This document shows, one piece after another, positions 9,701 through 58,066 of a stretch of DNA of 64,000 nucleotides. The position numbers and the translations under genes were made by a program. Location: positions 102,814-166,813 of the forward strand of contig JARGNG010000008.1 in the NCBI GenBank assembly GCA_029213265.1, written 5' to 3'. The DNA is from Verrucomicrobiales bacterium. Its GTDB lineage: Bacteria; Verrucomicrobiota; Verrucomicrobiia; Verrucomicrobiales; DEV007. Position 1 is the first letter of the stretch, and each line of letters opens with the position of its first letter. The notes below the pieces were generated by a model that was given only the letters and a program-made list of their open reading frames with translations, was not told the origin of the DNA and searched no databases.

Positions 9701-10642
9701 TCACTGGATGATTTCGCTCTTCGGATAAAAGGCCTCCCAAGCTTGAACAAAAGAAAGCGTTCCGGGAACCGCTTCCAAATGGAGGCCCTTGTCCGGGCCG
9801 GAAATGGCAATCCCGGTTTCGCGGCTCCAGCGGGACCCGTTCTCCTCATTCTCCATGTATCCATTCTCTTCCGCCGAAAAAGCCAGCGGACGGCCGTCCG
9901 CCTCGGCTCGAAACGCCTGCACGCTTCCGCCTCTGGATCGATGAGTGAACACATAAGAGGCGCGGCCCGTTTTAACCATGACAACGCCCTCCCGCTGCAG
10001 CTTTCTCAAACCGACTGCAGGAGATTCCCCTTTTGTATTTCCGGAAATTCCGAAAACGAATCGACGAGCTTTCTCCCATTTCCCTTCGTCATATCCCCCC
10101 GTCGTCCGTTTCATCGCGAGGACGGAAGATTGGGGATAGCGGGCTTTCCAATCCTCCCAGGTCGTAATGACTGAAGGGATGCGCTCCAATTCCGTCCCTT
10201 CCAATTCGCCGCGCATTCCTTTCCCGAGGAGGTGACTCCAGAGCGTCTCCGTCTCGACATCGCGCATAACAAGGCTGCGCTGCCACAGCATTCCCGAAAC
10301 CTGAAAGTTCAGTTCTTTTTCTCCGACGGACCTGACATACACGATGCCATTGAAGCAAAGGTGTCACCAGGTCGCCGCGATAGATCGATCCCCCAGGGTA
10401 TCGTTGATGATCTCCCTCGTCGGATTGGTCAGCTGATTGATGGGATACGCCCTCGCCTCGTCCGCTACGACGACTCCAAGAACAAGTTCCTTTGCGATGA
10501 CCCATTTCCCGGCCTCATCAGAGGTCGCGATCTCAGGGTTCTGAATCGAGGGAAAGGGCTTCACCACCTGTCGTGGATTGAAATCCTGACCCGATACGGA
10601 AAATGCAATCAGAGAGAATAGCAGAGTCGTGATCAACTTCAT
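9701..10642 (-). CDS. DUF3179 family protein with in-frame UGA (predicted selenocysteine 93)
   Basis: Read through one TGA (10364-10366), this is a 313-residue DUF3179 protein with a signal peptide (MKLITTLLFSLIAFSVSG) starting at 10642. The family has a conserved C-P-L-C type motif after IVNDT-x-GG. Here the text runs INDTLGDRSIAATW-U-HLCFNG, so UGA replaces the first Cys of a CxxC pair and Cys96 remains. The remaining family landmarks follow in the same frame, with no shift: FQVSGMLWQRSLVMRDVETETLWS and TTWEDWKARYP. A hairpin with a G-containing apical loop lies just downstream. Conventional annotation would split the gene into a short N-terminal piece and a 213-aa piece starting at GTG 10342. 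Function of DUF3179 is unknown to me; a redox role is inferred from U-x-x-C. It is first of a likely two-gene operon with the sulfatase. Confidence 0.82.
10333..10349 (-). promoter_or_regulatory. Candidate bacterial SECIS hairpin of the DUF3179 gene
   Basis: On the mRNA strand, UGGCAU (10349-10344) pairs with AUGUCA (10338-10333): six pairs including one G-U. They close the loop CGUGU (10343-10339), which starts 21 nt after the UGA. A second helix around the UGA itself is possible (GACCU with AGGUC, then GACA with UGUC). A G among the first two loop positions at this distance fits the bacterial SECIS rule. Confidence 0.55.
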
Positions 10643-10774
10643 GGTGGGTGGGACGGCAACGGCACCGAAAGCTTTCTTCGCTCTCCGATGAATTCGCCGC
10701 AGATCATTACCATTACAAACCGACTCCCTTTTTTCCATGGCATTCCCCGAAATCTTTCGGCACCATCACGAATC

Positions 10775-11956
10775 ATGGAGGTATTCTTTTTCTTCGCTCT
10801 GATTATCGTCGGAGTCGCGTTCTTCGTTTTTCGTCATTCGAAGGCGACAAACGAAGCCTGGGCTCAAGCAGCCTCCCGGTTGCGGCTTGATTTCGAAGAG
10901 GGATTGAGTATCCGGAAAATGCACGGGAAGCGAGTCGATCTTTCCCTTGAGATCAGAACAGAATCGGTTTCGAAAGCTACCTGGACGAAGTACATGGTAC
11001 AATTTGCCGAGCCGCTGCCTTTTCCCATTCGACTGCAGCCGCAGGGAATTTTCTCCGAAGTCCGCAATGCGTTTCTCGACCGGATTGATATCGAGACGGG
11101 AGATGCCGCCTTCGATTCGCAACTCGTCATCGAGAGCAAGCGTGCGGAAGACGTGCGGGGCTTTCTTGATCAACGCGCCCGAACCGCAATCATGAAGTTA
11201 CTGTCCCGCTTTGACCTCTTTGAAATGACAGAACGCGGGATTATTGCGACACAGAAACGAGTCAGTTCCAGTACCACGAAGCTTGTTGAGGACGTTCAAC
11301 TGCTGGAAGCTTCCGCCCGGAAATTACTGGAATCTGCCCGGCCCCCGGTCGAACCGGCAAGGGTTCCTCCTCCCCTGCCCCCGCGAAAGAAAACCGAAGA
11401 GCCGGCTCCGGAGTTGCCCGACGAAGAGGGAATCGTACCGTCCACAGAAACTGAAACACCTCTGCTCGAAGAAGAGATTTTCGAAGTGCCGGTTCCAAAG
11501 ATCCAGATTGAACCATCGACTTTCACGGATCCCGCCTTTTCACCCGACCAACCTCTGTCGACGCTTCCGAATGAGGACACCATCTTCGCGATGCACTGCC
11601 GCGAATTATTTTCGGATTGTCGGAGTCGATACGAAATGTCAAAAGTGTTTACTACCGAAGTGAAGGGAAATAGAATCGAAGAGAGTGCGATCCTCCTCCG
11701 GGCGGAACCTTTCTCGATGGACCGGATTCTCGGAAGAGGCCCGGGAATATTGCGAACTTTTTCGCTGGGAAAACTGAACGACGGGAACGAACTTTTTCTT
11801 GTTGCGGACACACCTGGCGACGAATCGCCCTCGAAGTGGAAACAAAGGGAAGGTCAGTCCGTCACTGTCGCCGGCACCCTCGTAGCCTTTGATCCGTTTT
11901 CCTATAGGATTTTTCTGAAAGAGCCGGTTGAAGAGGAATGTTCCACCATCCTTTGA
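10775..11956 (+). CDS. Unknown membrane-anchored protein with Pro/Glu-rich linker
   Basis: I do not recognise this 393-aa protein. From the ATG at 10775 it begins with a single N-terminal hydrophobic segment (MEVFFFFALIIVGVAFFVF), so it is probably membrane-anchored. A folded region follows to about residue 170 (…WAQAASRLRLDFEEG, then a segment predicted as alpha/beta), a Pro/Glu-rich linker (PPPLPPRKKTEEPAPELPDEEG) and a C-terminal domain of about 130 residues. An earlier in-frame ATG at 10688 would add 29 unlikely residues. It is divergent from the DUF3179 gene (132-base gap) and convergent with the lipase-like gene, with only 11 bases between stops. No catalytic motif seen. Confidence 0.75.
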   Translation: MEVFFFFALIIVGVAFFVFRHSKATNEAWAQAASRLRLDFEEGLSIRKMHGKRVDLSLEIRTESVSKATWTKYMVQFAEPLPFPIRLQPQGIFSEVRNAFLDRIDIETGDAAFDSQLVIESKRAEDVRGFLDQRARTAIMKLLSRFDLFEMTERGIIATQKRVSSSTTKLVEDVQLLEASARKLLESARPPVEPARVPPPLPPRKKTEEPAPELPDEEGIVPSTETETPLLEEEIFEVPVPKIQIEPSTFTDPAFSPDQPLSTLPNEDTIFAMHCRELFSDCRSRYEMSKVFTTEVKGNRIEESAILLRAEPFSMDRILGRGPGILRTFSLGKLNDGNELFLVADTPGDESPSKWKQREGQSVTVAGTLVAFDPFSYRIFLKEPVEEECSTIL

Positions 11957-11967
11957 GCTGTAATCCG

Positions 11968-13843: not shown

Positions 13844-13891
13844 ATTCAGGCGCGTCCAAATTCAGGCGCGTCCAAATTCAGGCGCGTCCAA
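13844..13891. repeat. Three tandem copies of a 16-bp unit at the 3' end of a transglutaminase gene
   Basis: ATTCAGGCGCGTCCAA is repeated exactly three times (13844-13859, 13860-13875, 13876-13891). The copy nearest the gene encodes the last codons of the 13862-14749 protein, and the stop codon lies in the middle copy. Perfect identity suggests recent slippage duplication. Confidence 0.95.
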
Positions 13892-14749
13892 AACACCCAT
13901 GCGGATGGCCTCCCCCCGATTCATCAAATCCGATCTCGTCAAATGTACAAACTCATCTGAGTTCCCGGCCTGCTCAACGCTCACTTGAATCCCGTTCCCG
14001 GAAACATTTCCGAACAGCATGGCTGCCGCCACATCTCCCGCATCCCGCCCACTCGCGATTCTCACCATACCGTTCAAGGGCGCAATTTTCGTGCCGTCGA
14101 CCAGATACCACTGCCTATCGATAAATACTTCGAAAACCGCGTGAAAGTCCTGTGGCTGCAACCGATAGGCATAAACGGTCACATATCTTGCCGGAATATT
14201 CAGGGCCCTGCAAAAGGCGATTCCCAAATGGGCGAAGTCACGACAAACGCCGACTCGATCAATGAATGTGTCAGCCGCTGAGGACTGTTCAATGGAAGTG
14301 CCTATCTGATAGGAAATATTCTGAAACAACCACTCTTCTATGGCCATGGCCACGTCAAAAGGCCCTTTTATACTTCCGAACAAATCAAAGGCAGCGGTCC
14401 TCATTCGATCTGACGGCACATAACGGCTGGGAAACAAATAGGGGATTCCCGCTTCGTCCATCGCTTCGATCGACTGAAACGGAATCTTCGAAATCTCAAC
14501 GGTGTTGAAAACAGGCTCAATCTCAGCCTCATAGGTGACGGACACCTCGGAGGAGTCTTCCACGTGCCATTTTAAGATGCGGCTTCCAACCGTTCCTACC
14601 TCCAATTCCCGAAGCCTTTCCTGCGGCTGCGTCCAGATTGATTCAGAGAGAATTTTCTGACCACCCAACCGGCTGCAGGCAATCGAAAAAAAGAATGTCG
14701 TCGGACCGTAAACCTGGTAGTAGAGGTCACTTCGAAGCGCCAGTTTCAT
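13862..14749 (-). CDS. Transglutaminase-like cysteine peptidase-fold protein
   Basis: 295-aa transglutaminase-core protein with the Cys-His-Asp triad visible: Cys in GVCRDFAHLGIAFCRAL, His in DFHAVFEVF, Asp in WYLVDGTKIAP. The N-terminal half is a beta-rich domain like the bacterial transglutaminase N-terminal region. The start at 14749 overlaps the stop of the upstream gene by 4 bases, indicating translational coupling. It is the last gene of a four-gene block with a second transglutaminase, an ATP-grasp/alpha-E protein and a large transglutaminase-DUF2126 protein. Such blocks are predicted in the literature on amidoligases to make or trim peptide-like products; the actual substrate is unknown. 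The C-terminal residues are encoded by a tandem repeat. Confidence 0.9.
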   Translation of the reverse strand: MKLALRSDLYYQVYGPTTFFFSIACSRLGGQKILSESIWTQPQERLRELEVGTVGSRILKWHVEDSSEVSVTYEAEIEPVFNTVEISKIPFQSIEAMDEAGIPYLFPSRYVPSDRMRTAAFDLFGSIKGPFDVAMAIEEWLFQNISYQIGTSIEQSSAADTFIDRVGVCRDFAHLGIAFCRALNIPARYVTVYAYRLQPQDFHAVFEVFIDRQWYLVDGTKIAPLNGMVRIASGRDAGDVAAAMLFGNVSGNGIQVSVEQAGNSDEFVHLTRSDLMNRGEAIRMGVLDAPEFGRA

Positions 14750-15648
14750 TCTTTCTCCAAAGCTTCAACTCGTTCCACATCCACCTCCACAAAAAGAGCT
14801 TGCTTCCCACTTCCCAAAAAGATCCCTCGAATCGGCTGAACGTCGAAGTAGTCCCGCCCGTGGCAAATCTTGATATGCTGGTCTCCGGGAATCGTGTCGT
14901 TGGTAGGATCGAATCCGACCCAGCCACAGGCAGGGGCCCAGGCTTCGATCCAGGCATGCGACGCATCAGCACCTTGTAACTTTTCCTTCCCCGGAGGCGG
15001 CAGTGTCTCGAGATACCCGCTGACATATCGCGAAGGAATGCCAACGCCGCGCAAAGCGGCCAGCATCACGTGGGAGAAATCCTGACAAACGCCCTTTCTC
15101 TTTTCCATCACCTCAGAGAGAGCGGTGCTGGTCCCCGTCGCTCCCGGGGTGTAGTCAAATTCCCTGTAGACCCGGCTCATCAAGTCATGCACCACCTCCA
15201 TGACATCCTTCCCCGGGGAAAGAGAAGGCTCCATGAACTCACGAACACTGCCCAGAAAAGGGCAGGCACGGGTCGGGAGAATATAGTTCCCGAGAAGGAT
15301 TCCGGTCTGGTCGGTCGCCCGGTGAAATTCTTTGAGATCTTCCCAACCAATCTCCCCGGACGGAAGGGCCGGCGATGCCTCCTCCTTGCGCACGACCATA
15401 TCCGAGATCACGTCGAGTGATTCGTGGGAACTCTCGATGGAAAAGTAATGCACTTTATTTCCGAAATAGTCCTTTCGCTCCGATCTGAAATCGGGCTCCG
15501 GAAGAACCGTTAAAGAATGGCTTTCGGTTTTCTGATTTTCATCCTGCCTCGCCGCCAGGTGAGCATAACTGTGACAGAGATCAATCCTTCCGGAATACTC
15601 GTACACTGTGCGATGTCGAATTCGGTATCGACGATCAGCATTACTCAT
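14746..15648 (-). CDS. Transglutaminase-like protein (second in the block)
   Basis: 300 aa, with a beta-rich N-terminal domain beginning YRIRHRTVYEYSGRI, which is typical of these bacterial transglutaminases, and a core domain with Cys in KGVCQDFSHVMLAALR, His in ADASHAWIEAW and Asp in GWVGFDPTND. All three catalytic residues are present. The start overlaps the stop of the ATP-grasp/alpha-E gene by 4 bases and its own stop overlaps the next start by 4 bases, so the three are almost certainly translated from one message. Probably cytoplasmic, since no signal peptide is seen. The role (amide cleavage or cross-linking of the product of the neighbouring ATP-grasp) is an inference from context. 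Confidence 0.92.
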   Translation of the reverse strand: MSNADRRYRIRHRTVYEYSGRIDLCHSYAHLAARQDENQKTESHSLTVLPEPDFRSERKDYFGNKVHYFSIESSHESLDVISDMVVRKEEASPALPSGEIGWEDLKEFHRATDQTGILLGNYILPTRACPFLGSVREFMEPSLSPGKDVMEVVHDLMSRVYREFDYTPGATGTSTALSEVMEKRKGVCQDFSHVMLAALRGVGIPSRYVSGYLETLPPPGKEKLQGADASHAWIEAWAPACGWVGFDPTNDTIPGDQHIKICHGRDYFDVQPIRGIFLGSGKQALFVEVDVERVEALEKE

Positions 15649-18173
15649 AAGATAGTCCGGTTAGCATGGCTGAAATAGGATTTTGTCAGGTGGTCGCTGA
15701 GCGCATTCAACTGCGCACCGAGCGTCTCAAGATCCTCCTCCGCATAAGTTCTGATCGCCCCGGTATCGTCCCCATCACGCTCCAGCCTCTCGCAAAAGGA
15801 AAGCAGGTGTTCGCGGGCCGGCTCAATCAATTCCCCGGGATGAGTAAAGCCCACCGGCTCGGGAAGCTTGGCAAATACCAACTGAAGCCGTTCCAGAAGA
15901 AACAGGAGCGAGCGCGGATAATCACTCTCTCCGAGAAGAAGCCTCGCCATCGGTCCCGTTCTCGGTTCCTTGCGATAAGAGCTCTGGTAGGTTCCGAGAC
16001 TGTCCGAGATGAACAGGATTGATTCGTTTAAAAGAGATTCAATGGACTCTGGGGAAGCGTTGCTCACATGAAACGAAAGGAGTTTGACCGTATTGACAGC
16101 CCGCTCAATCCGCCGTCCTGCATCCAGCATGATCCACCCGTGATCTCTCGTCATACTGTCGAGATTCATTCCAAGGAAAGCGGCCAGATTGAGTTGTAGA
16201 GATTCCAGGGGGGAGGCATAACCAAAGACGCTCCGGGCATTCTCCGTGTTGTCGGACCAACCTTTGCAGATGGATTCAATCGCCAGAATACTGGCCGTTG
16301 ACCACTGCTCCCTCGTCAGATTCGTATTTCGGCGAAAATTCCGGAGATGGTAGCCAATTCCGGCGGGACAGTCCGACTCCCGCAAAACCATGAGCAGCTT
16401 TTCGTCCGCCTGATTTCCAGCATCGAGCAGACCGGTGCATTCATGGAGCGAGAAAAGGGCCTCCAAGAGAATGGACTCATGCTCAATTTCATCCGGAGTG
16501 GCATGAGCAAAACCAAGGGTTCGCCCCTGCAGGATTCGAGTCATGAAGCGGGAGATAAAATCAATCCGCTCCGCATTCCGTCCGACCCAGTAGAGATTCT
16601 CTGCCGCGTGACTTGTTACCGTCTCCGGACTGGTCAATCGGGATCGTCGCACCTGCTTGGAAATGCGAACTTTTGCGTCGTAGTTCTCATCGAGAACCCA
16701 AACGTCTTTGGACTCTCCGGCTTCGCGGGTCGAAACCACAATTCCATCCTCGGTGGTTACCCGGGCCAATCCTCCGGGCATGACATTGGGAACCCCTTCC
16801 CGACCACGAAAGGAAAACGCCCGCAAGACCGCACCTCGCGGCACGAGTCCGGAAGAAGTCGAAACGGGAACCGTCGAGAGGGCCAATTCCTCCTGCGCTA
16901 CAAATCTCTCGGGCTGCGCTTCGATCCGCGACCGAATCTCAGCCAGTTCCGCTTCTGCGAGGCGGCTGCCATAGAGAGTCGTAAAATCGCCATGAGGACC
17001 GACACCTTTCACAACCATGGACGACAGATTGGCGAGAACATGCTGTCGCGGAGCAGCATCACCGCACCACCACGTTGCAACCGAAGGAATGAGAAGAGGT
17101 TCCCCAAGAAGGAACTGACAAATTTTGGAAAGGTAGGGGAATAATCCGGGGCTTTGCAGGACTTCACATCCGGGGTGACTCGCAATGGCCACATTTCCCC
17201 GGCGAAGCGCCTCGAACATCCCCGGGATACCCCGTCCGAATCCCCGACTGGTTTCGAGAGGGTCCAGTTCCCTTCCCGCCGTGTATTTCCAAAGCACGTC
17301 GATTTTCTCAAGGCCCCCGATCGTCTTCAACCAAACCTGACCGTTTCGAACGGTGAGATCAGATGGAATGACGCGGAGAATCCCGCAGTAGTTGGCGAGA
17401 AAGCTGATCTCGGAATCCGTATCTTCCTGAGTCGCATCGAGAATCGCTACCCGGGCCGAGCTGGAATGCTTCGGTGCACACTCGGCAAGATGATCGAACC
17501 ACTCGACAAAAAAATGACCGATTCGCCGCACTTTGTTCCGTCGGAACAAGTTAGGAAGAACGGTATTCACGATGGTCCGGTTCTCGAGGGCCAGCCCGGG
17601 ACCGAAGGGCTGGTCGAATCGATCGTTAAGCGCAAAGACCCTCCCCGAGTGATCTCTCCCGAGGTCAGTCGCAGCCATACCGAGACCGACGCAACTCTCT
17701 CTGGGAGGAATGTCATGGAGAGCCCGGAGAAATCCTGGATGCGAAAGAATGATCTGAGGGGGGATCAGCTTTTCTTTGAATAACCGCTGCTGCCCTCCGT
17801 AGAGATCGCCAAGAATGGCGTCAAACAATCGCAGACGTTGGGAGACACCCCGCTCAATGGCTTTCCAGTCCTCCTTGGCAAAAACCCATGGAACAGGGCC
17901 GAGGGACCAGTTTCCGCTTGTTTCCCCGGCTTCGATGCGATCAGGGCGATAGGCCAGTCCACGCTCTCGCGAGAGACGATGGATTTCCGACTGCCAGGTG
18001 GTCAGCCCGTCCGGCCCGTGCCTCTGAATCGAATCGAAGAGGTCCGACCAGCCTGGACGCAGTAACCCATCGTCCCCGATTGCTTCATCGCGACGAGTCG
18101 CAAAGGGCTGATAGGTGACGGCGGGGTTGCCTCCGGAAGATGCCGGGGCAGGTTCGACGAGAGCCGTATCCAT
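15645..18173 (-). CDS. Circularly permuted ATP-grasp fused to alpha-E domain
   Basis: 842-aa fusion. The N-terminal half (about residues 80-480) is a circularly permuted ATP-grasp of the type seen beside transglutaminases, with recognisable blocks such as GMAATDLGRDHSGRVFALNDR, SDLTVRNGQVWLKTI and VVKGVGPHG. The C-terminal portion (about 530-840) is the all-helical alpha-E domain, opening with AAENLYWVGRNAERI. In many genomes these are two separate genes, so the fusion is a variant. ATP-grasp enzymes form amide bonds, which fits a predicted peptide-ligation role with the adjoining transglutaminases. It lies 10 bases downstream of the DUF2126 gene and overlaps the next start by 4. Confidence 0.93.
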   Translation of the reverse strand: MDTALVEPAPASSGGNPAVTYQPFATRRDEAIGDDGLLRPGWSDLFDSIQRHGPDGLTTWQSEIHRLSRERGLAYRPDRIEAGETSGNWSLGPVPWVFAKEDWKAIERGVSQRLRLFDAILGDLYGGQQRLFKEKLIPPQIILSHPGFLRALHDIPPRESCVGLGMAATDLGRDHSGRVFALNDRFDQPFGPGLALENRTIVNTVLPNLFRRNKVRRIGHFFVEWFDHLAECAPKHSSSARVAILDATQEDTDSEISFLANYCGILRVIPSDLTVRNGQVWLKTIGGLEKIDVLWKYTAGRELDPLETSRGFGRGIPGMFEALRRGNVAIASHPGCEVLQSPGLFPYLSKICQFLLGEPLLIPSVATWWCGDAAPRQHVLANLSSMVVKGVGPHGDFTTLYGSRLAEAELAEIRSRIEAQPERFVAQEELALSTVPVSTSSGLVPRGAVLRAFSFRGREGVPNVMPGGLARVTTEDGIVVSTREAGESKDVWVLDENYDAKVRISKQVRRSRLTSPETVTSHAAENLYWVGRNAERIDFISRFMTRILQGRTLGFAHATPDEIEHESILLEALFSLHECTGLLDAGNQADEKLLMVLRESDCPAGIGYHLRNFRRNTNLTREQWSTASILAIESICKGWSDNTENARSVFGYASPLESLQLNLAAFLGMNLDSMTRDHGWIMLDAGRRIERAVNTVKLLSFHVSNASPESIESLLNESILFISDSLGTYQSSYRKEPRTGPMARLLLGESDYPRSLLFLLERLQLVFAKLPEPVGFTHPGELIEPAREHLLSFCERLERDGDDTGAIRTYAEEDLETLGAQLNALSDHLTKSYFSHANRTIL

Positions 18174-18183
18174 AGGCTGGAAT

Positions 18184-21100
18184 CTACTCTATCCAGGGCA
18201 CTTGCAAGCCCGAAGGTGTTCTCAAATCAAGCGTGTGTGGGAATTCCCCAAACTTGTTTTCAGCCGGAATAATCGAAGCCGCCGAGCCGCCGGTAAACGG
18301 TTCAAATCTCACGAGACTGCCTGAGGCAACCGCCGCAGCTTCCACGACACCCGGCGTATGCCCCTCTTCCCAGAAGCGCGCAATCCTGCGCGATTCCGCC
18401 TCCCTCGCATTCACAGGGAAGGTGTCATAGCTTCGACCACCCGGATGGCTGACGTGGTATACGCATCCCCCGAGTGATTTCCGATTCCAGATATCCACCA
18501 AATCGAAGGTCAACGAAGGCTGTGCCGGAATCATCGGATGAAGAGCGGAAGGAGGATCCCAGGCCTTGAAGCGGACGCCACCAACTCGCTCCCCTTCATT
18601 GTCAGTCGGATACAGAGGAACTCGTCTCCCGTTGCAGGTGAGAATATGTCGTTCCTCCACCGCTCCTCTCAAGCGGACTTGAAGCCTCTCGAGAGAGGAA
18701 TCGACAAAACGGGCCGTGCCCTGATTGCTCGCTTCCTCACCGAGAACATGCCAGGGCTCTAAGGCGGTGCGGAGTTCGATCTCGGCGCCTCCCCGAACGA
18801 CCGCTCCCAAACGTGGAAATCGAAACTCGAGGAAGGGGCGCAGCCATTCAGTCTCAAAAGGAATATTTCCGGACTGCAATTTTTCACAGACATCAGTGAT
18901 ATCATCCCAGACAAAATACGGGAGGAGAAATTTGTCGTGGAGCGTCGTCCCCCAACGCACCGGCTTCTCCCGATATGGATTCTCCCAGAAATAGGCCAGA
19001 AGAGAACGAACGAGCAGGCTCTGAACCAGCGCCATCTCGCGATGCGGCGGCATTTCAAACCCGCGCAGTTCGACCAGCCCAAGTTGGCCGGAGGATGAAT
19101 CGGGAGAACAAAGCTTATCAATACAGATCTCGGCACGGTGGGTATTACCGGTCAAATCAGTCAACAAATGACGCATGATCCGATCGATCAAAAACGGTGG
19201 ATCGACTCCTTTGTGCAAGGCATCCAGAGCGATTTCCAGTTCAAACATTCGATCGTCCCGCCCCTCGTCGACACGTGGAGCCTGGCTCGTAGGGCCGATA
19301 AAAGCGCTCGAGAACAGGTAGGAAAGTCCCGGGTGATGCTGCCAGAACCCGACCAAACTCGCGAGAAGATCCGGCCGGCGCAGAAAGGGGCTGTCCGACG
19401 GAGTCGCACCGCCAATCACCACGTGATTCCCCCCGCCCGTTCCGGTATGCTTTCCGTCGAGCATGAATTTTTCGGTTCCCAATCGGGACTCGCGGGCAGC
19501 CTGGTAGAGCGTAGATGTATTTTTTACCAGTTCCTCCCAGTTCGAAGACGGGTGAATGTTCACCTCAATCACTCCGGGGTCGGGAGTCACTTTTAAATTC
19601 TCGACGCGCGAATCTGCGGGCGGCTCATACCCTTCGATCACGACTTTGATCCCGGTCTTTTCCGCGGCCTCTTCCACAGCCGCCAGCAACACGAGGTAGT
19701 GTTCGAGGCAGCTCGTCGGAGGCATAAATACATGAACGCGACCGTCCCGGTTCTCCGCACAGAGAGCGGTTCGGGGGATCCACTTCCCATCATAGCTGTT
19801 TCCGGACTCACGGGTTCGATAGGGGGCGAGCGGATCCGCGGCAAGATCCGGAATGTCCGTCTCCATCGGGGAACGAATTTCCACGATATCTTCTTCGGTC
19901 GCTTCCCGAATGGAATCCAGCGGAAGCCGCAATCCAATGGAGGAAGCTCCCGGAATCAGGAAAAGGCTTTCCCGGCGCAGCTTCCATTTCGCACCGGTCC
20001 AGAGACCAGTCGCATCGTCCATAAAGATCGGAAGCAGGCTTCCGGTCGGCACATTCAGTCCCCGCTCCTCCAACTCAGCCAGGGTCCTCCGCTCGAGGGA
20101 GTCTTCTTCGCTGGCAACTACCGGATCCTCGAAGGTCGGCAATGCCATTGCCTTCCACTGATAGTAATAGGCATCTTCGAGAGCAGGAGACACGAGATCG
20201 GACGGAATCCGGAGAGCTTCCGCGATAGCTTCCAGAAGCTTGCCCGGCTCATCGTATCCGTACTCACCGGCGATTGCAGGATCGGCCTGCAGTTCCGGCT
20301 TCTTCCAAAGGGGCTCCCCGTCTTTCCTCCAGAAAATCCCGTAGGCCCAACGGGGAACCAGCTCTCCCGGATACCATTTTCCCTCCCCGACCCAGATCAG
20401 GCCGCCGGGGCCAAACTGGTCCCGGAGTCGAAATGCCAACTCCATCGCGAGCTCCCGCTTTCGAGGGCTGTCAGCGGTCGTGTTCCATTCCGCCCCTTCC
20501 ATATCATCTATGGAAACAAAAGTGGGTTCCCCTCCCATCGTGAGACGAACGTCATTGGATTCGAGTTTGACGTCGACCCACTTCCCCACCCCATGAATGG
20601 CACTCCAGGTTTCGGTAGAATAAGGTTTCGTAACTCTGGGATCCTCGTGAAAACGCCGTACCGAATTCTCAAAGGAGAACTCACACTCACAGTCCTCGAC
20701 TCCTCCGGAGATGGGGGCGGCGCTACTCGGTTCCGGAGTACAGGCCAGCGGGATGTGCCCCTCGGTCGCCATCAGGCCGGAGGTCGGATCCATCCCAACC
20801 CAGCCGGCTCCGGGAAGATACACTTCCGCCCAGGCATGAAGATCTGTGAAATCAGCCTCTGGGCCCGACGGTCCCTCGATCGGTTTTTCATCCTCCACCA
20901 ACTGCACGAGATAGCCGGAAACGAAGCGGGCTGCCAAACCGATTCTACGAAGGAGCTGGACCAACAGAAAGGCGGAATCACGGCAGGACCCTGAACCAAG
21001 ACGCATGGTCTCCTCGCAGGTCTGCACCCCGACTTCGAGACGTAGTTTGTATTCGACCATCGACTGCACTTTCTGATTGATTCGCACCAGGTAATCAATC

Positions 21101-21525
21101 GTCCTGGGGTTGCCTTCCGGCTTCAGCTCGTTCGCAAGATGATCCAACCCTTCCGCCTCATCGGAGATTCGAAGGTAGGGGCTCAGCTCCGTTTTGAGAG
21201 CCTCATCATAGAAAAAGGGAAATGTCTCGGCGTGCTCTTCCAGGAAAAAATCAAACGGATTGATCGTCGTCATTTGAGCGATCAGATCGACGACGACTTC
21301 AAACTTCTTTGTCTTTTCAGGGAAAACGAGTCGGGCGAGATAGTTGCCAAACGGATCCTGCTGCCAGTTGAAGAATTGCTCCCCCGGCTCAACGCGCAGC
21401 GCAAAGGAAAGGATGGGAGTGCGGCAGTGGGGTGCGGGCCTCAGACGAATCACCTGCGGGTGCACAGTGATCTCCTGATCGTATTCGTAAGTGGTTCGGT
21501 GACAGAGGGCAACTTGGATGGACAT
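18184..21525 (-). CDS. Large transglutaminase-DUF2126 (putative amidoligase) protein
   Basis: 1113 aa, the usual length for this architecture. The N-terminal beta domain (VALCHRTTYEYDQEI) is followed by a transglutaminase core with Cys in GSGSCRDSAFLLVQLL, His in FTDLHAWAEVY and Asp in GWVGMDPTSG. From about residue 325 comes DUF2126, starting DVRLTMGGEPTFVSIDD and continuing through GGGNHVVIGGATPSDSP and LVELRGFEMPPH. First gene of the block, so the promoter should lie in the 119 bases between it and the transporter gene upstream on the same strand. Members are linked in the literature to predicted amide-bond chemistry, but no product has been established to my knowledge. No signal peptide. 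Confidence 0.93.
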   Translation of the reverse strand: MSIQVALCHRTTYEYDQEITVHPQVIRLRPAPHCRTPILSFALRVEPGEQFFNWQQDPFGNYLARLVFPEKTKKFEVVVDLIAQMTTINPFDFFLEEHAETFPFFYDEALKTELSPYLRISDEAEGLDHLANELKPEGNPRTIDYLVRINQKVQSMVEYKLRLEVGVQTCEETMRLGSGSCRDSAFLLVQLLRRIGLAARFVSGYLVQLVEDEKPIEGPSGPEADFTDLHAWAEVYLPGAGWVGMDPTSGLMATEGHIPLACTPEPSSAAPISGGVEDCECEFSFENSVRRFHEDPRVTKPYSTETWSAIHGVGKWVDVKLESNDVRLTMGGEPTFVSIDDMEGAEWNTTADSPRKRELAMELAFRLRDQFGPGGLIWVGEGKWYPGELVPRWAYGIFWRKDGEPLWKKPELQADPAIAGEYGYDEPGKLLEAIAEALRIPSDLVSPALEDAYYYQWKAMALPTFEDPVVASEEDSLERRTLAELEERGLNVPTGSLLPIFMDDATGLWTGAKWKLRRESLFLIPGASSIGLRLPLDSIREATEEDIVEIRSPMETDIPDLAADPLAPYRTRESGNSYDGKWIPRTALCAENRDGRVHVFMPPTSCLEHYLVLLAAVEEAAEKTGIKVVIEGYEPPADSRVENLKVTPDPGVIEVNIHPSSNWEELVKNTSTLYQAARESRLGTEKFMLDGKHTGTGGGNHVVIGGATPSDSPFLRRPDLLASLVGFWQHHPGLSYLFSSAFIGPTSQAPRVDEGRDDRMFELEIALDALHKGVDPPFLIDRIMRHLLTDLTGNTHRAEICIDKLCSPDSSSGQLGLVELRGFEMPPHREMALVQSLLVRSLLAYFWENPYREKPVRWGTTLHDKFLLPYFVWDDITDVCEKLQSGNIPFETEWLRPFLEFRFPRLGAVVRGGAEIELRTALEPWHVLGEEASNQGTARFVDSSLERLQVRLRGAVEERHILTCNGRRVPLYPTDNEGERVGGVRFKAWDPPSALHPMIPAQPSLTFDLVDIWNRKSLGGCVYHVSHPGGRSYDTFPVNAREAESRRIARFWEEGHTPGVVEAAAVASGSLVRFEPFTGGSAASIIPAENKFGEFPHTLDLRTPSGLQVPWIE

Positions 21526-28177: not shown

Positions 28178-30382
28178 ATGATTCCCAGCCCATTCCAAAC
28201 CGCTCTCCGGCTATCTGCCCATAGACTTCTACCAATCGCCGCATTGGCTTTCCCGGCTCTACCCGTGCTCAGCCTTGATACCGACGGGATCAATGACTAC
28301 CGGACTGCGGATGGCAGTGGAAACAATCCGGGAGCTCCGAATCTCGGTATCACGGACTCCCCTTTGATCCGGATCGCGACTCCAGGATACGGAGACGCGA
28401 TCGATCTTCCCCGGGGAGTCGCAGTGGAAGATGAAGGGAACGGAGACGTCGAAGTCGACGAGCAGTCCCTGCCGAGTGCCCGTCGGATCAGCAATTTCGT
28501 ACACGATCAGGGTTCTCAGGATATCCCCAGCAAGAATGACCTCAATCAGCTGTTCTTTCAGTTCGGACAGTTCTTAAGCCACGACACCGGCCTCAGCGAA
28601 CCGAACGGGAGCCTCACGACCGGCGCAGGAACCGGGCTATCGGGAAATGAATTTTTTCCAGTCGAAGTGGAAGCAGGCGATCCTGACTTCCTCTTTCCCG
28701 AAATCGGACTGACCCGTACGATTTCCAAATCCGCGGCGAGTTCGGCCAGTGGATACCGCGAGCAAATCAACACGATTACCAGCTTCATCGACGGATCGAA
28801 CATCTATGGTTCCGATTTGACGCGAGCTAATCTCCTCCGCTCTTTCTTCGGCGGAAAAATGAAGGTGCAGGCAGGTCCGGACGGGGACCTGCCTCCTTTC
28901 AATACCTTCGGGCTCACCAACGCCAACAATCTCGGCCTACCCGAGACTTCGCTTTTCGCGGCGGGGGACGTCCGTGCTAACGAACAGATTGGATTGACCG
29001 CATTTCACACCCTCTTTCTTCGTGAGCACAATCGACTCGCCGACGAAATCGCAGCCTATCAATTTCCCTACGACAATCTTTCCGACCCTGCGATCGACGA
29101 AGAGATCTACCAACGCGCCCGGGCCATCGTCGGCGCGCTCCTCCAGAAAATCACTTACCACGAATGGCTTCCCGCCCTTCTTGGAAAGCATGCCCTCAAC
29201 CACTACGGAGGCTACGATCCCAATGTCGACCCCTCGATCTCCAACGAGTTCTCGACCGCTGCCTTTCGAATCGGCCACACCATGCTGCCATCCGAATACC
29301 AAGTCCTCGACGACTTCGGGACCGCCACTCCGGTCGCACTTCAGAACGCTTTCTTCAATCCGGATTTTCTTTCGGCGTATGGAGTCAGCGGGATCATTCG
29401 CGGCCAGGCTCTCTATCGGCAGCAGGAACTGGATCGGTTTGTCGTCGACGATGTGAGAAACTTTCTTTTCGGCCCCGGCTTCGGCGGGCTTGATCTCGCT
29501 GCGCTGAATATCCAGCGCGGCCGCGACCATGGAATCCCCTCCTATAATGCCGTTCGGGCGGCCTTCGGATTGGGAGAAAGGAACGGATTTGAAGAAGTCA
29601 CAGGGGACTACGACTCCGCCTTTGATGCCCTCGAACAAGCCTACGGTGCCGGAGCGATCGATGAGCTCGACCTCTGGACGGGCGGCCTCAGTGAGCCTCA
29701 CCTGCCCGGCTCCAATCTGGGGGAAACCTTCAGCCGCATCTTTGTCGATCAATTTACGCGGCTGCGGGACGGAGACCGTTTCTACTTCGAAAACTCTGAC
29801 ATCTATCCATCACATTTCGTCCAATTGATCTTCGATACCACCCTGACCGATATCATTCGCAGAAACACAACTATCAACGATCACGAGCTCAATGGGTATG
29901 CCTTCTACATTCCGGGAGCCGGCTCCGATTTCCATCAAACGGATCTTCGTATCGGCACAGACAAGGCACCTTATCTTCACAAAGGCAATGACATCTACAA
30001 TCTGTCCGCCGCAGGACAAACCGTCCGCAACCGGGCGCCCCTCCACGGAGCCGGGATCATCCACGTCTCCGTGGAAAACGATGGAAACGCCCACGGAACA
30101 ACACGGCTCCAGACGAACCGGCTGTCCCGTAAGAAATTCCAAAGCCGCTACATTGCACTTCACGACTACGGGAGAGAGAACATCTCCGCACAAATTGTTT
30201 CAGGACAGTTCTACAAGGATCTCGATCCCGGCGAAATCCTTCAAATTCAGAGCCGCGTTCGAGTTCGCAATCCACACTACTATCGCCGGTTGAAAGCGAA
30301 CCTCCTCTTCACTGCCTTTCACGGCGATCACTACGATGCCGGGGATAAGGTGAAGGCTATGACCCGGTTCCGCGGCTATTGA
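28178..30382 (+). CDS. Secreted animal-type haem peroxidase
   Basis: 734 aa with a signal-like N-terminus (RLLPIAALAFPALPVLS). It belongs to the animal haem-peroxidase superfamily (myeloperoxidase/thyroid peroxidase type, bacterial peroxicin branch). The distal His-Asp is in FGQFLSHDTGL, the Ca-loop region follows, the conserved Glu-His is in LFLREHNRLADEI, the proximal His is in AFRIGHTMLPSEY and the family signature is LNIQRGRDHGIPSYN. The last 140 residues form an extra C-terminal domain without similarity I can name. Likely exported and able to oxidise halides or organic donors with H2O2; the physiological donor is unknown. An AT-rich palindromic promoter region precedes it. Monocistronic, followed by a convergent rlpA remnant whose stop is just inside the gene end. 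Confidence 0.93.
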   Translation: MIPSPFQTALRLSAHRLLPIAALAFPALPVLSLDTDGINDYRTADGSGNNPGAPNLGITDSPLIRIATPGYGDAIDLPRGVAVEDEGNGDVEVDEQSLPSARRISNFVHDQGSQDIPSKNDLNQLFFQFGQFLSHDTGLSEPNGSLTTGAGTGLSGNEFFPVEVEAGDPDFLFPEIGLTRTISKSAASSASGYREQINTITSFIDGSNIYGSDLTRANLLRSFFGGKMKVQAGPDGDLPPFNTFGLTNANNLGLPETSLFAAGDVRANEQIGLTAFHTLFLREHNRLADEIAAYQFPYDNLSDPAIDEEIYQRARAIVGALLQKITYHEWLPALLGKHALNHYGGYDPNVDPSISNEFSTAAFRIGHTMLPSEYQVLDDFGTATPVALQNAFFNPDFLSAYGVSGIIRGQALYRQQELDRFVVDDVRNFLFGPGFGGLDLAALNIQRGRDHGIPSYNAVRAAFGLGERNGFEEVTGDYDSAFDALEQAYGAGAIDELDLWTGGLSEPHLPGSNLGETFSRIFVDQFTRLRDGDRFYFENSDIYPSHFVQLIFDTTLTDIIRRNTTINDHELNGYAFYIPGAGSDFHQTDLRIGTDKAPYLHKGNDIYNLSAAGQTVRNRAPLHGAGIIHVSVENDGNAHGTTRLQTNRLSRKKFQSRYIALHDYGRENISAQIVSGQFYKDLDPGEILQIQSRVRVRNPHYYRRLKANLLFTAFHGDHYDAGDKVKAMTRFRGY

Positions 30383-30620
30383 TCCCTGCGGAGAGAGGGC
30401 TCCAGTAACTCGCGATTCGACAGTGGAACAACACCGCGCCCGACAAAGTCCAGCTTGCCGGCAACGCCAATCGAAACACCGATGATGCGGCCTCCGACGA
30501 ACGGGCCTCGATCATTGATTCGCACAATCGCACTGCGACTGTTGGCCAAGTTGGTCACCTCCAGTTTCACAGCAGGAACGCCGGTAGCACCAGGAGAGTC
30601 GACAGGAGTATACGCTTCAT
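30376..30620 (-). pseudogene. RlpA-like lipoprotein remnant (internal deletion, out of frame)
   Basis: The ATG at 30618-30620 opens a typical signal peptide (MKRILLSTLLVLPAFLL) that meets a stop at 30567-30569. In a different frame the sequence continues with the double-psi beta-barrel of RlpA: VTNLANSRSAIVRINDRGPFV and KLDFVGRGVVPL, ending at 30376. The region normally between signal peptide and barrel is missing, so this looks like an internal deletion that also broke the frame. Intact RlpA acts as a septal lytic transglycosylase in some bacteria. Nothing functional is expected here. The end overlaps the haem peroxidase stop region. Confidence 0.7.
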
Positions 30621-30759
30621 AGAGTTCGAACAATCATTCCCCGCCAAACGACTCGCCGGGGAGCGCGAGTTCTTCGGGGGTGAGTCGTTGGCCCGGCATC
30701 CTCGCGGAAACAGCCGTGCCCGGGTGGCTCCCGACGCATGAAAAATTTTGGATTTGAAA

Positions 30760-37473: not shown

Positions 37474-37479
37474 GTCGGG

Positions 37480-39966
37480 CTAAGAATCGGTAAAAAGTTC
37501 GCTCGTGACAAGATCCACAATGAGGCCCCGCAGACGAAAGCCGTCGCGTTCAAAATCCGCAGTGAGAGATTCGATGGCCTCGCGGTCCGCCAACTCGAGG
37601 GAGCGCCCGAGCGCATAGGTCGCAAGGCGTTTCGTCACGGCGCGGGCAAAGTGAGTGCGTCGCTCCCGGAGGAGAAACTGTTTCAAATCGTCGATGCCAT
37701 TGATTTTCGTCCCGTCGGGAAGTGTCGTGGCGGGATCCAGAGCCGGGCCCCGGGGAACCGATCCGTTCTTTCGAATTCTCATCGCGGCATGGGAACGCGA
37801 AAGACCTACTGCATCAAAGTTTTCCAGGGCGATTCCCCACGGATCGATGCCCTCATGGCAACTTCGACAGGATTCCTTTTCCCGATGAACCGCGAGCTGC
37901 TGCTTCACGCTGAGACCGGCGAGGTCGGGATTCTCCGGGTTGAGTTCGGGAACATCGGGAGGAGGAGGAGCCGGAGGCGAATCGAGAAGTCGATCGAGAA
38001 TCCAGAAGGCGCGTTTGATTGGGTGAGAAGCTTCCCCGTTCGAATTGCTGAGGAGAAAGGCCCCCTGACCCAGCAGTCCCCCACGCTGATCGTCCTTCGT
38101 CAGAGCAATCCGTTCAAAAGCTCCCGAACGTGGGCGGTTTCTCAAGCCGTAGTGTGTCGCGAGGGCGCGATTTGCCATCGTCCAGTTGGAATCAATCAGT
38201 TCGAGACAACTGAGATCACCTCGCAGGATTTCACCAAAGACTTCCCGGGTTTCCTGTCGCATTGCCTCCTTGAGGTCATTGTCGAAGTCAGGGAAAAACT
38301 CCGGATTCACTGCGACCCGGTCGAGTCCACCGAGATCGAACCACTGATCCGTAAAACAATTCACAAATTCGGAGGCCCGGGGGTCATTCATGAGACGGGC
38401 CGTTTCCTCTGCGAGCGTTTCCGGCTGGCGTAGTTTTCCATTTTCCGCGAGCTTCATCAGTTCTTCATCCGGAGCCGCGCTCCAGAGCAAATAGGAAAGT
38501 CGGTTCGCGATAGCGTAGTCATCGCGTGTGTCGACGAGATGGAGAAAGTGAGGCGAGACAAGAACCGCAGCAAAGGTTTCCCGGATCGCCTCGGGGAAAG
38601 ACTGGCAGCCGGGACGGATTGCCTGGAACAGGCTCACGAACGGCTCCACTTCAGCAGGCTGCACCGGCCGCCGAAAGGCGCGGGGAAGAAACGATTCGAG
38701 GGCCGCTTTTGCGGTTTCTTTTTCATCGGCTCCGGAACCGGCGGAACCCAATAAAGCAACATGACTGGGCGGTGGCCAGGTTGTCACAACCGGAGCTTCG
38801 TAGCGGACGGATCGGACAACAATGTCGAGGAGGGGCCCTTCCGGAGCGGGAGGAAGTTCAGGAACCGGACCGCCCTTCTTTTTGGGCTTCGAAGGTGGAT
38901 CCGAATAGCGGCGATGCGGATAACGAAGCTCCTTTCCATCTGCGTCGAAGAAATCCAGCATTACGATGACCCCGTTGAAGTCGACGCCTCCCCCAAATCT
39001 CGTTTCACCCGCCTGCGGGAAATCTTCCATTCGCCCTCGAAAGACAAAGGTTTCAGGCTTGTCTGCCGGAGCCCTTATATCGACCTTCCCCACGAGCTTG
39101 CGGGGCACGTGGATGATGCCCGGAACACAGCCGAGCCAGACTTCCATGCGGGGAAAATCATTTCCTTCGGGAATCACGGCACCCGCCTCGACCCGGATCT
39201 CGAACTCTCCCGTTCGGGGGAACTCGTCCACATCCAGCACAAACTCCGGGTTGATCGGGATCGCTCCACCGTCCTTTTTCCGCGGGAGCCGCCCCACCGC
39301 TGTCTTGTCCTGCTGGACGACATGAACTTCCGGTTTTTTCCCTTCGATGATCGCGAGACTGAGTGCCTTCCGGGCGACCGCGAGGTAGGTTTCGATTTGT
39401 GTGGGCGAGAATTCCAGGGTGCGGCCGTTATTGAGAAAACCTTCGGGCGAGGTCGGTTCGGGGGGCAATTCGCGGGCATAGTCGAAGCTCACCCCGACCA
39501 GGTCCCGCATCGTATTGGCGTATTCGTATCGAGTCAGGCGCCGCGAAGAGACGCGGCCTCCCAAATGGCGAGTCGCCGCAACGACTTCCTCAAGGCCCTC
39601 GTTGATCCACGAGGTAAGAATCTGCCGCTCTTCCTTTGTCAGCTGCTTCCCTGCCTTTTCCGGGGGCATTTCCCCAAGATGGATCTGATCCAGCGAATCG
39701 TGCCAGGTATCAACGTCGCCTCCCCGGAGAAAATCGGGATTCAACTGATCAAGGCGAAGATCCGCCTTCTGCTTTTCCGGGCCGTGGCAGTCCACGCAGA
39801 CCCGCTCGAGAATCGGTCGAATTCCGGAATCGAAATCAGTTCCGAGGGAAAGACTTCCCACGGCGAGATTCAGAAGAACGAAGGATGTGACGATTCTGCG
39901 CACCCGATACCAATGCCGAAAAAAAACCGACCGTCCAGATGCGTAATGGCGGGGCAACTCCAGCAT
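37480..39966 (-). CDS. DUF1587/1592/1588/1585-type cytochrome c protein
   Basis: 828 aa from the ATG at 39966; a start at 40026 would add 20 residues. The N-terminal hydrophobic segment is a signal or anchor. A haem-binding CVDCH (PSCyt1-type) lies near residue 60, then a DUF1587-like start (SSRRLTRYEYANTMRDLVG), DUF1592/DUF1588 blocks (NRLSYLLWSAAPDEEL, FTDQWFDLGGLDRV, THYGLRNRPRSGAFERI) and a second CRSCH (CRSCHEGIDPWGIALENFDAVG) before DUF1585. The two CxxCH sites support haem c attachment in the periplasm. Operon with DUF1552. Function undetermined. Its start region abuts a divergent pseudogene. Confidence 0.95.
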   Translation of the reverse strand: MLELPRHYASGRSVFFRHWYRVRRIVTSFVLLNLAVGSLSLGTDFDSGIRPILERVCVDCHGPEKQKADLRLDQLNPDFLRGGDVDTWHDSLDQIHLGEMPPEKAGKQLTKEERQILTSWINEGLEEVVAATRHLGGRVSSRRLTRYEYANTMRDLVGVSFDYARELPPEPTSPEGFLNNGRTLEFSPTQIETYLAVARKALSLAIIEGKKPEVHVVQQDKTAVGRLPRKKDGGAIPINPEFVLDVDEFPRTGEFEIRVEAGAVIPEGNDFPRMEVWLGCVPGIIHVPRKLVGKVDIRAPADKPETFVFRGRMEDFPQAGETRFGGGVDFNGVIVMLDFFDADGKELRYPHRRYSDPPSKPKKKGGPVPELPPAPEGPLLDIVVRSVRYEAPVVTTWPPPSHVALLGSAGSGADEKETAKAALESFLPRAFRRPVQPAEVEPFVSLFQAIRPGCQSFPEAIRETFAAVLVSPHFLHLVDTRDDYAIANRLSYLLWSAAPDEELMKLAENGKLRQPETLAEETARLMNDPRASEFVNCFTDQWFDLGGLDRVAVNPEFFPDFDNDLKEAMRQETREVFGEILRGDLSCLELIDSNWTMANRALATHYGLRNRPRSGAFERIALTKDDQRGGLLGQGAFLLSNSNGEASHPIKRAFWILDRLLDSPPAPPPPDVPELNPENPDLAGLSVKQQLAVHREKESCRSCHEGIDPWGIALENFDAVGLSRSHAAMRIRKNGSVPRGPALDPATTLPDGTKINGIDDLKQFLLRERRTHFARAVTKRLATYALGRSLELADREAIESLTADFERDGFRLRGLIVDLVTSELFTDS

Positions 39967-40781: not shown

Positions 40782-42092
40782 TCAGGGACTTCTCCGGTTT
40801 TTCCAAAAGACTTCCAGTTCTTCCTTTTTCAGAATCCCGTCTTCGTTCGTATCGATCTGGTCGAACCTCTCTGTCATAGGACCGCGGGCTTCGTCTCTGG
40901 AAATGGAACCGTCTGAATTCGCGTCCATCCGCGTAAAAATGGAAGCGGCATCCGGCATTCCCTTCCCGGCGCCTCTTCCGGGACCGCCGCCCCTTCTAGC
41001 ACCCGCGGCCTGTATTCTTCCTGCGTCCCGGTCGACATCCCAGTGGAGCTGGAACTCCTGTGTGATCGATTTGCACCAGGTATCACCATCGTCACAGGCA
41101 AAGTAGGTAACACTCACAAGAAGGGCTTCCTCTGACGAACCTCGATTGACTTCGATCAGGAAATCGCGGGGATCCCGATCCGCTTCGTGCTCCGCTACTT
41201 CCTCCGCTTCTGCTGTCGCAGGGGAAACCGCAATGCCCTCTGGAGCTGTGATCGCAAATTTCATCGGCGGAGCCAGGTTGTTCCAATGCACCTGATGAAT
41301 CGGATCAAGAGCGAAGGAAAGATGGAGTGATCCGTTTCCCTCCCGGAGAAGCGATTTCGGAGCTTCCGCCCTAAGCTTCAGGTAACGCGGATTGTCGCCC
41401 GGCCTGGTCGACGTGACTTCAAGAGCCTGGGAGTCAGCCGGACGGGGCACGCGTGGGACCACTCCTTCGGCGATCTTCGACTCCTTTTCGATGACCGGAG
41501 GCCCGGTCGTCGCCTCGGTCAGTGTGCCCGCCTTTCCAACCAGCCCTTCCAGATCGGTTCGCAAAGTCTCCGGATCACTCCAACTCCGTGCGATGAGAAC
41601 TTCCCCCTCCGGAGAAATGACAAATTCGGAATTGTTTCGATCGCCAAAAGCGTGCTTGAGGTCGTTTGCCATCGTATCCGCAAGCCAGGGGATCTTCGTA
41701 TTCAGTTTCTTCTTTGCGATTTCGATGTGAGCGAGACGTTCCTCAATCGCCACAGGCTGCACAAAGCCATTTTTCTCCGGATGAGCGAGTGATTTGTAGA
41801 CGTAGAAAAAAACGACTTCTTTGCTTTGGTAATCCTGATAGACCGCCTCCAGACCGGGGACGTTTCGTAGAAAAGGTGGTCATGTCAGACAGCCGAAAAC
41901 AATGACCCCGTGTTTTCCTTCGAGTAGTTGCCCCAGCGAGACCTCGTTTCCTTTTTCGTCCACTGCGGTCACTTCAGGAAGCGATTTCCCCTGAAGCGGA
42001 AGGGAACCTCCTGACTTTCCTTTTCCAGGGCCCTGCCCCAGCAAGGGATGAGCCAGAAAAAGAAGGAGAACGGTAAGCAGGCCGGCTTTCAT
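40782..42092 (-). CDS. Deiodinase-like selenoprotein (Sec71) fused to DsbD-alpha-like and EF-hand domains
   Basis: Read through TGA at 41880-41882 this is one 436-residue secreted protein. The signal peptide (MKAGLLTVLLLFLAHPLLGQ) is set by the ATG at 42092. Residues 30-190 are a thioredoxin-fold domain with VFGCLT-U-PPFLRNVPGLEAVY, matching the iodothyronine-deiodinase active-site pattern SCT-U-PPF, and then VYKSLAHPEKNG, like the family's REAHP segment. Residues 230-350 resemble the DsbD N-terminal domain, with a Cys pair in FACDDGDTWC (333/340). EF-hand loops follow at 390-401 and 414-425. All parts are in the same frame across the UGA, and a GGUCU-loop hairpin follows it. Located 37 bases downstream of a sulfatase on the same strand. 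Substrate is unknown; deiodination should not be assumed, since bacterial relatives may be general reductases. Confidence 0.87.
41844..41862 (-). promoter_or_regulatory. Candidate bacterial SECIS hairpin of the deiodinase-like gene
   Basis: On the mRNA strand CGUCCCC (41862-41856) pairs with GGAGGCG (41850-41844), with one C-A mismatch and one G-U pair. The loop GGUCU (41855-41851) begins 25 nt after the UGA. GGUCU matches the apical-loop sequence I recall for the Escherichia coli fdhF SECIS, where G and U contact SelB. Confidence 0.65.
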
Positions 42093-53089: not shown

Positions 53090-53107
53090 GGCAGGAGAAA
53101 ATAGGGC

Positions 53108-57233: not shown

Positions 57234-57240
57234 CCCGTCT

Positions 57241-57287
57241 CCAGACGTAACAGGGTTGGGCCAAATACCGAACCCTGTTGAGTCTGG
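57241..57287. terminator. Long hairpin after ndk, sharing arms with 36098-36130
   Basis: Inner arms AACAGGGTT (57249-57257) and AACCCTGTT (57271-57279), perfect over 9 bp, are extended by CCAGAC (57241-57246) with GTCTGG (57282-57287). The 13-base loop is GGGCCAAATACCG. No T-run. Confidence 0.7.
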
Positions 57288-57304
57288 ATTCAGTCACTTC
57301 GAAG

Positions 57305-58066
57305 ATGAGCTTTGCTAAGAAATACGCTTTTTGCCTCGCGCCGCTTCTCGGCTCTTTCGGCTTTCTGAGTTACTTTCTGATCTTCGCAAAGTATCCGGCT
57401 TTCCGCGACCTGCCGGTGCTGAATTTTTTTCTCGTCCTGGTGTCCGTTGCGCTCGCGATTGTGGGCCTGCGTTCCGTCCGGGGAGCGAACTGGAAACGCA
57501 AGGCCATTCACAGTCTCGGCCTCCTCTTATCACTCGGTTGTGCGGCAATGCTGTTTTTCTATGTGTTCGGCATTTCCTATCAAATGCCCGAACCGACCAC
57601 CGAAACGCTCGCACTGGAATCTGCTCCGGACTTTTCCCTGACCGATGCCAACGGGCAGATCGTACCGCTCGCCTCGTTTCGCGGGAAGAAGGTAGTTCTA
57701 TCGTTCTTTCGCGGATTCTGGTGACCTTTCTGCGTTTCAGAACTGCAAGGTTTGCAGTCGCAGCTAGAGGAATTTCGGGCCAACGGAATAGAGGTGATCG
57801 CGATCAGTGCGAGCACAGGGGAGGACCTGAAGGAGAAGTTGCTTTCGAAAGGGATCACTTTCCCGCTACTCGCCGACCCGGAACTCCGGGCGATCGATGC
57901 CTACGGACTCCGCCACGAAGGAGGCAATCCGTTTGGCGGCGACATTTCCCGACCCGCTGTTTTTCTGATCGATGAGGAAGGAAAGATCATTGCCAATATC
58001 CTGACGGATAACTGGAGAGTCCGACCCACCGCGAAAGACATTCTCGACCGTTTCGATAAAGGTTAG
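57305..58066 (+). CDS. Membrane-anchored peroxiredoxin-like selenoprotein (Sec140)
   Basis: 253 residues including one UGA (57722-57724). About three transmembrane segments (near residues 8-30, 38-60, 72-95) precede an AhpC/TSA-type domain outside the membrane: APDFSLTDANGQIV, then KVVLSFFRGFW-U-PFCVSELQGLQ, SRPAVFLIDEEGKI and NILTDNWRVRPTAKD. In Cys homologues this site reads W-C-P-F-C, so UGA replaces the first Cys, leaving Cys143. The domain continues in the same frame for more than 110 residues after the UGA, so premature termination would remove the active site. A GGU-loop hairpin lies 18 to 33 nt after the UGA. The start at 57305 was chosen because an upstream TTG lies in the ndk hairpin. 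Likely peroxide or thiol reductase. Convergent with the EF-hand esterase, one base apart. Confidence 0.9.
57743..57757 (+). promoter_or_regulatory. Candidate bacterial SECIS hairpin of the Sec-peroxiredoxin gene
   Basis: CUGCAA (57743-57748) pairs perfectly with UUGCAG (57752-57757) around the loop GGU (57749-57751), which starts 25 nt after the UGA. The stem sequence and GGU loop resemble the fdhF SECIS apex as I recall it. An alternative short hairpin UCUG-CGUUU-CAGA nearby would compete. Confidence 0.65.

Follow-up and report, generated by a model that had tools for sequence, protein, structure and literature searches.

The 64,000-nucleotide (nt) stretch of Verrucomicrobiales DNA analyzed here, referred to as the window (C159:102814-166813 of a 5.87-Mb draft genome in 182 contigs), contains three genes whose reading frames are each interrupted by a single UGA. 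They encode a DUF3179 protein, a deiodinase-like protein, and a peroxiredoxin-like protein. Read with TGA as selenocysteine (Sec, U), each frame is open and includes exactly one internal UGA, in the contexts AATWUHLCFNG, VFGCLTUPPFLRN, and RGFWUPFCVSE, respectively (start codons were picked by eye). These frames agree with an earlier note on this DNA, which had proposed one in-frame UGA per gene at a redox position in three unrelated families. The UxxC redox pair described there is present in the DUF3179 and peroxiredoxin-like proteins; the deiodinase-like protein displays CxxU instead.

Table 1 Features of the three UGA-containing genes in the window, with positions counted from its first nucleotide. 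SECIS, selenocysteine insertion sequence.
Feature	Position	Strand	Remarks
DUF3179 (PF11376) selenoprotein gene, candidate	9701..10642	minus	ATG at 10642; one in-frame UGA
UGA codon, first redox position of WUHLC	10364..10366	minus	frame reading and homolog alignment
SECIS-like hairpin of DUF3179 gene	10333..10349	minus	loop CGUGU; first loop base 21 nt past UGA
Deiodinase-like selenoprotein gene, candidate	40782..42092	minus	one in-frame UGA
UGA codon in CLTUPPF	41880..41882	minus	frame reading and homolog alignment
SECIS-like hairpin of deiodinase-like gene	41844..41862	minus	loop GGUCU; first loop base 25 nt past UGA
Peroxiredoxin/ResA-like selenoprotein gene (AhpC-TSA, PF00578), candidate	57305..58066	plus	one in-frame UGA
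UGA codon in WUPFC	57722..57724	plus	frame reading and homolog alignment
SECIS-like hairpin of peroxiredoxin-like gene	57742..57758	plus	loop GGU; first loop base 25 nt past UGA

The read-through DUF3179 protein exceeds the Pfam gathering score of its family (198.5 bits, cut-off 27). Its ATG precedes a stretch that resembles a signal peptide by eye, and its C-terminal half is predicted to adopt a Rieske-like fold. The peroxiredoxin-like protein, with WUPFC as its UxxC motif, likewise exceeds the AhpC-TSA gathering score (106.1 bits, cut-off 26), and hydrophobic stretches at its N-terminus suggest a membrane anchor.

The deiodinase-like protein begins with a signal-like stretch (judged by eye), followed by a thioredoxin-fold domain (residues 31-187), a β-rich domain in which C333 and C340 make up a second Cys pair, and an EF-hand-like C-terminus. 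Pfam matches comprise AhpC-TSA, Redoxin, and EF-hand. The protein falls short of the gathering score for T4_deiodinase (PF00837; 24.6 and 24.9 bits against a cut-off of 27) and scores 62.3 against NCBIfam NF038285, where 250 is needed; 23 of 27 aligned members of its family match T4_deiodinase at E 0.01 or better. The predicted model shows the arrangement typical of iodothyronine deiodinases, a thioredoxin fold in which Sec is followed by a PPF-like stretch. Of two structure rankings, one places the predicted fold nearest mouse deiodinases 2 and 3; in Foldseek E-value order, DipZ and ResA chains lead, with deiodinase 3 (Dio3) in 9th and deiodinase 2 (Dio2) in 15th place. Sequence identity to the vertebrate deiodinases 2 and 3 (PDB 9h48, 4tr3) is 23-24%. 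Of the six Dio2 relay residues (Ser127, Thr129, Tyr157, Glu160, His162, and His182), we placed the first five by eye on the alignment. Three are retained, as Thr70, Tyr99, and His104 (Dio2 Thr129, Tyr157, and His162), while Glu160 is replaced by Leu102 and Ser127 by Cys68, so the proton-relay set is incomplete.

To follow the UGA site across the order, each of the three proteins was searched in 189 of its genomes at E 1e-15. DUF3179 homologs occur at 12 places in 11 genomes (UGA in 7), deiodinase-like homologs at 22 places in 19 genomes (UGA in the motif in 16), and peroxiredoxin-like homologs at 31 places in 28 genomes (UGA in 27). Alignment with TGA read as U, which the earlier note had called for, pairs Sec with Cys in all three families: among the 64 fetched loci, the aligned codon is TGA in 50 and TGC or TGT in 13, and one is a fragment that starts past the site. 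One further homolog place, with no internal stop, lies outside this count. By family, the aligned codon is UGA in 7 of 12 DUF3179 loci (Cys in 5) and in 27 of 30 fetched peroxiredoxin-like loci (Cys in 3). TAA or TAG occupies the aligned site in none of the 64; seven matches do contain such codons, but before the motif and close to where the match begins.

Beyond the order, the deiodinase-like alignment was used to scan 84,980 species genomes, which gave 125 stretches; 109 of these were confirmed and the best 80 kept, and one of the two search patterns demanded Cys at the site. The codon within GCLTUP is TGA in all 80 (best 80 of the 109 confirmed), in records titled Verrucomicrobia, Planctomycetota, Acidobacteria, Poribacteria, or in some cases just "bacterium". 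In a quick tree of 107 deiodinase-like rows, two changes suffice for the eight rows labeled Cys; one more Cys row is unlabeled. Of the best 120 database relatives of the deiodinase-like query, 7 reach the site (5 Cys, 1 Ser, and 1 Trp), with 113 too short and starting past it; the few that carry a name have such titles as hypothetical or EF-hand protein. The best 120 for DUF3179 include 66 that reach the site (63 Cys and 3 Ser) and 54 that start past it. The prediction that standard annotation reports these genes as broken is thus borne out for the DUF3179 and deiodinase-like families, in which many database relatives consist of the piece past the UGA. The Trp and Ser at the Sec position belong to deiodinase-like relatives P0127 and P0172, respectively; the Trp in P0127 may reflect a UGG codon or translation by another code.

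The earlier note had also proposed a search for selA, selB, selC (tRNA-Sec), and selD, and the genome contains all four. The tRNA-Sec gene (C79:2579-2673) scores 61.5 bits, above the family cut-off, and has the anticodon UCA (TCA in ARAGORN). Contig C141 carries selB (30439-32361; 307 bits counting an adjoining piece), selA (36231-37592; 514.7 bits), and selD (37819-38748; 379.2 bits), the last with one in-frame UGA of its own (SSCAGUASK). An AhpC-TSA search of the genome returned 18 places, three of which have one UGA; these are the window gene and two genes elsewhere, L178 on C88 (FTGGUTAEC) and L190 on C121 (SWUAPC). The set is therefore larger than the three described for the window, and the genome as a whole holds at least six genes with an in-frame UGA (DUF3179, deiodinase-like, selD, and three AhpC/TSA genes). 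Many further U..C and C..U patterns are present in the six frames of the window, and scanning the entire contig by dicodons turned up no additional Sec-like gene.

Presence of the UGA form tracks the Sec machinery across the order. We detected selA in 60 of the 189 genomes, including every one of the 33 in which at least one of the three genes has a UGA form; of the remaining 156 genomes, 27 have selA (Fisher 1e-20, uncorrected for kinship). Within the taxonomic family of the window genome, a UGA form occurs in 31 of 39 genomes with selA and in none of the 19 without it. Counting genes of any form in the same family, the deiodinase-like gene is found in 18 of 39 selA-positive versus 0 of 19 selA-negative genomes and the peroxiredoxin-like gene in 25 of 39 versus 1 of 19; for DUF3179 the counts (8 of 39 versus 2 of 19) do not differ significantly. 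Because of these any-form counts, the deiodinase-like and peroxiredoxin-like genes seem to have been lost along with the Sec machinery and not converted to Cys forms.

Hairpins can be placed behind all three UGA codons as the earlier note had drawn them (Table 1). When the 55 nt from the UGA are folded to minimum energy in the window copies, the drawn hairpin appears in just one, that of the peroxiredoxin-like gene. Among homologs, codon conservation was measured at invariant amino acids, comparing the stretch just behind the UGA with the rest of the gene over 20,000 permutations. Codon identity is 0.89 behind the UGA versus 0.38 elsewhere for DUF3179 (7 sequences; 2 permutations as high), 0.70 versus 0.42 for the deiodinase-like genes (16 sequences; 14 permutations), and 0.84 versus 0.37 for the first of two peroxiredoxin groups (12 sequences; none). 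Among 71 deiodinase-like sequences (the window copy plus 70 of the 80 kept loci), 87.7% of cells pair, and the covariation score is matched by none of 500 shuffles; it is reached by 6 of 500 for the 16 sequences of the order and by none of 500 for the second peroxiredoxin group (14 sequences). The hairpins are thus conserved, with covariation in two of the four sets. Sec genes retain 5-7 of 7 pairs (deiodinase-like), 4-5 of 5 (DUF3179), and 6-7 of 7 and 4-5 of 5 (peroxiredoxin-like), compared with 2 of 7 in four deiodinase-like Cys homologs and 4 of 7 in a fifth (G098), 1-3 of 5 in those of DUF3179, and 2-5 of 7 and 3 of 5 in the peroxiredoxin-like ones. The peroxiredoxin-like hairpin is offset by one codon between subgroups L055-L066 and L068-L084, with a GU core in most loops. 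Within the limits given here, all three genes display a trait of bacterial selenoprotein genes, a hairpin shortly after the UGA whose small loop includes a G.

Since the UGA occupies the active-site Cys position of relatives and the Sec-insertion genes are present in the genome, we consider it most likely, with a probability of about 0.96, that the three genes encode Sec-containing redox proteins read through UGA. Several observations weigh against this assignment. The stricter filters applied to tRNA-Sec detect it in 24 of the 33 UGA-form genomes; the nine misses may be due to these filters and to incomplete drafts. The minimum-energy folds of the window deiodinase-like and DUF3179 copies differ from the drawn hairpins, both of which therefore rest on comparison, and the window deiodinase-like stem contains an internal C-A mismatch, leaving 6 of 7 pairs. 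In the second peroxiredoxin group, codons behind the UGA are no more conserved than elsewhere (13 sequences; 4586 of 20,000 permutations). Variation among the hairpins of DUF3179 and among those of the first peroxiredoxin group is slight (50 of 500 shuffles reach the score in the latter), so covariation is no guide there. Two Cys homologs, L030 and L080, show another hairpin under loose rules. In the covariance-model search that the earlier note had suggested, Rfam SECIS_1 has no match in the genome, but neither does it match any of 14 control genomes. The 80 kept deiodinase-like loci are those most similar to the window protein, and 29 further confirmed loci lie outside the count. Finally, the earlier note had named missing Sec genes, or frameshifts and other stops at these positions in relatives, as evidence against its proposal; the Sec genes are present and UAA and UAG are absent from the site, but in one deiodinase-like relative (L051/L054 in G098, a draft genome with some 470 contigs) a 1-nt indel lies shortly after the Cys codon, one of the 13 counted above, with the hairpin intact.

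Three other explanations were weighed. The UGA could be read by a near-cognate tRNA, or act as a selenium-dependent switch that yields a Cys or Trp product at low selenium. Cys or Trp insertion at UGA is known in other settings, and the residue predicted here follows from sequence; the presence of selA in every UGA-form genome and the conservation of the hairpins fit Sec insertion better, which leaves this explanation a slim chance. More improbable still, the genes could be pseudogenes, or the UGAs could stem from recent nonsense mutation or from errors of sequencing or assembly. The window does come from a draft in 182 contigs, and the indel in G098 adjoins the site; against this, UGA recurs at the matching residue within the order (7, 16, and 27 loci) and in all of the kept deiodinase-like loci from several phyla, UAA and UAG never replace it, and the protein is conserved on both sides. 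A genome-wide code change that makes UGA a sense codon (for example, for Trp, as the residue in P0127 might hint) can practically be dismissed, as the earlier note had argued, given that UGA is the most frequent ordinary stop (51 of 101 long open reading frames on three contigs) and that sense homologs carry Cys (13 of 13 loci, and 5 of 7 deiodinase-like and 63 of 66 DUF3179 database proteins that reach the site, among the best 120 each).

Bacterial selenoproteins related to all three are already catalogued, so the three genes extend known families. DUF3179 selenoproteins (PF11376, UxxC/T) are listed in PMC9312934 (2022) and PMC13188914 (2026), and those entries have the Pfam family and the UxxC motif in common with the window gene (WUHLC); one database protein is already titled DUF3179 domain-containing (seleno)protein. 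The window gene differs in its Verrucomicrobiales host and its predicted Rieske-like C-terminal half, which the available portions of the two papers do not mention. Deiodinase-like selenoproteins of bacteria (PF00837), reported in PMC1088965 (2005), are listed again without a motif in PMC2398784 (2008), and a fusion of deiodinase and EF-hand is described in PMC9402790 (2021). As far as these accounts go, the published proteins resemble ours in their thioredoxin fold, Sec followed by PPF, and EF-hand C-terminus, a likeness by description and not by sequence; the tables of PMC9312934 and PMC13188914 give the motif as UxxC, in contrast to CxxU in the window. The available portions of these five papers name no lineage for the fusion, and a word search of the main text (supplements apart) finds no mention of Verrucomicrobia in PMC9312934, PMC13188914, PMC2398784, or PMC9402790. 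A peroxiredoxin-like thiol:disulfide oxidoreductase (PF00578, UxxC) in PMC9312934 shares the AhpC-TSA domain and UxxC with the window gene, which differs, as far as the entry tells, in its N-terminal hydrophobic stretches and in hairpins that lie one codon apart in two subgroups. New here are the lineage, the near-exclusive use of UGA in the deiodinase-like family, and the extent of database truncation, together with a predicted fold that one of the two rankings sets nearest mouse deiodinases 2 and 3 and a Rieske-like fold predicted for part of DUF3179.

Two other loci in the window were noted. A 734-residue animal-type heme peroxidase (PF03098, 485 bits) is encoded at 28178-30379 on the plus strand, in the same window as the deiodinase-like gene; the PF03098 family includes thyroid peroxidase. 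On the minus strand, genes for transglutaminase-like, circularly permuted ATP-grasp/alpha-E, and DUF2126 amidoligase proteins cluster at 13862-21525 and possibly form a peptide-modifying operon.

From these sequences we infer Sec insertion, SelB binding, and the location and enzymatic activities of the three proteins as follows. SelD would supply selenophosphate, with which SelA would convert Ser-tRNA-Sec to Sec-tRNA-Sec. SelB would then bind the hairpin behind each UGA, which likely guides insertion, and deliver Sec there in place of termination. The products are likely extracytoplasmic redox proteins. The peroxiredoxin/ResA-like protein would be a membrane-anchored UxxC reductase, and the DUF3179 protein would likewise carry a UxxC pair; in the deiodinase-like protein, with its thioredoxin fold and CxxU motif, electrons could reach the CxxU site from the second Cys pair. 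A further proposal, which we regard as doubtful, is that animal deiodinases descend from the CLTUPPF family found in Verrucomicrobiota, Planctomycetota, Acidobacteriota, and Poribacteria; this family would be a Sec-dependent extracytoplasmic reductase that has a Cys-pair relay domain of its own and disappears along with the Sec machinery instead of being converted to Cys.

The finding enlarges known families and overturns nothing. Because 113 and 54 of the 120 best deiodinase-like and DUF3179 relatives, respectively, start past the UGA, gene calls in this lineage drop the active-site part of selenoproteins at large scale, and the use of UGA in all 80 kept deiodinase-like loci (best 80 of 109) provides a bacterial system in which to model how animal deiodinases arose.

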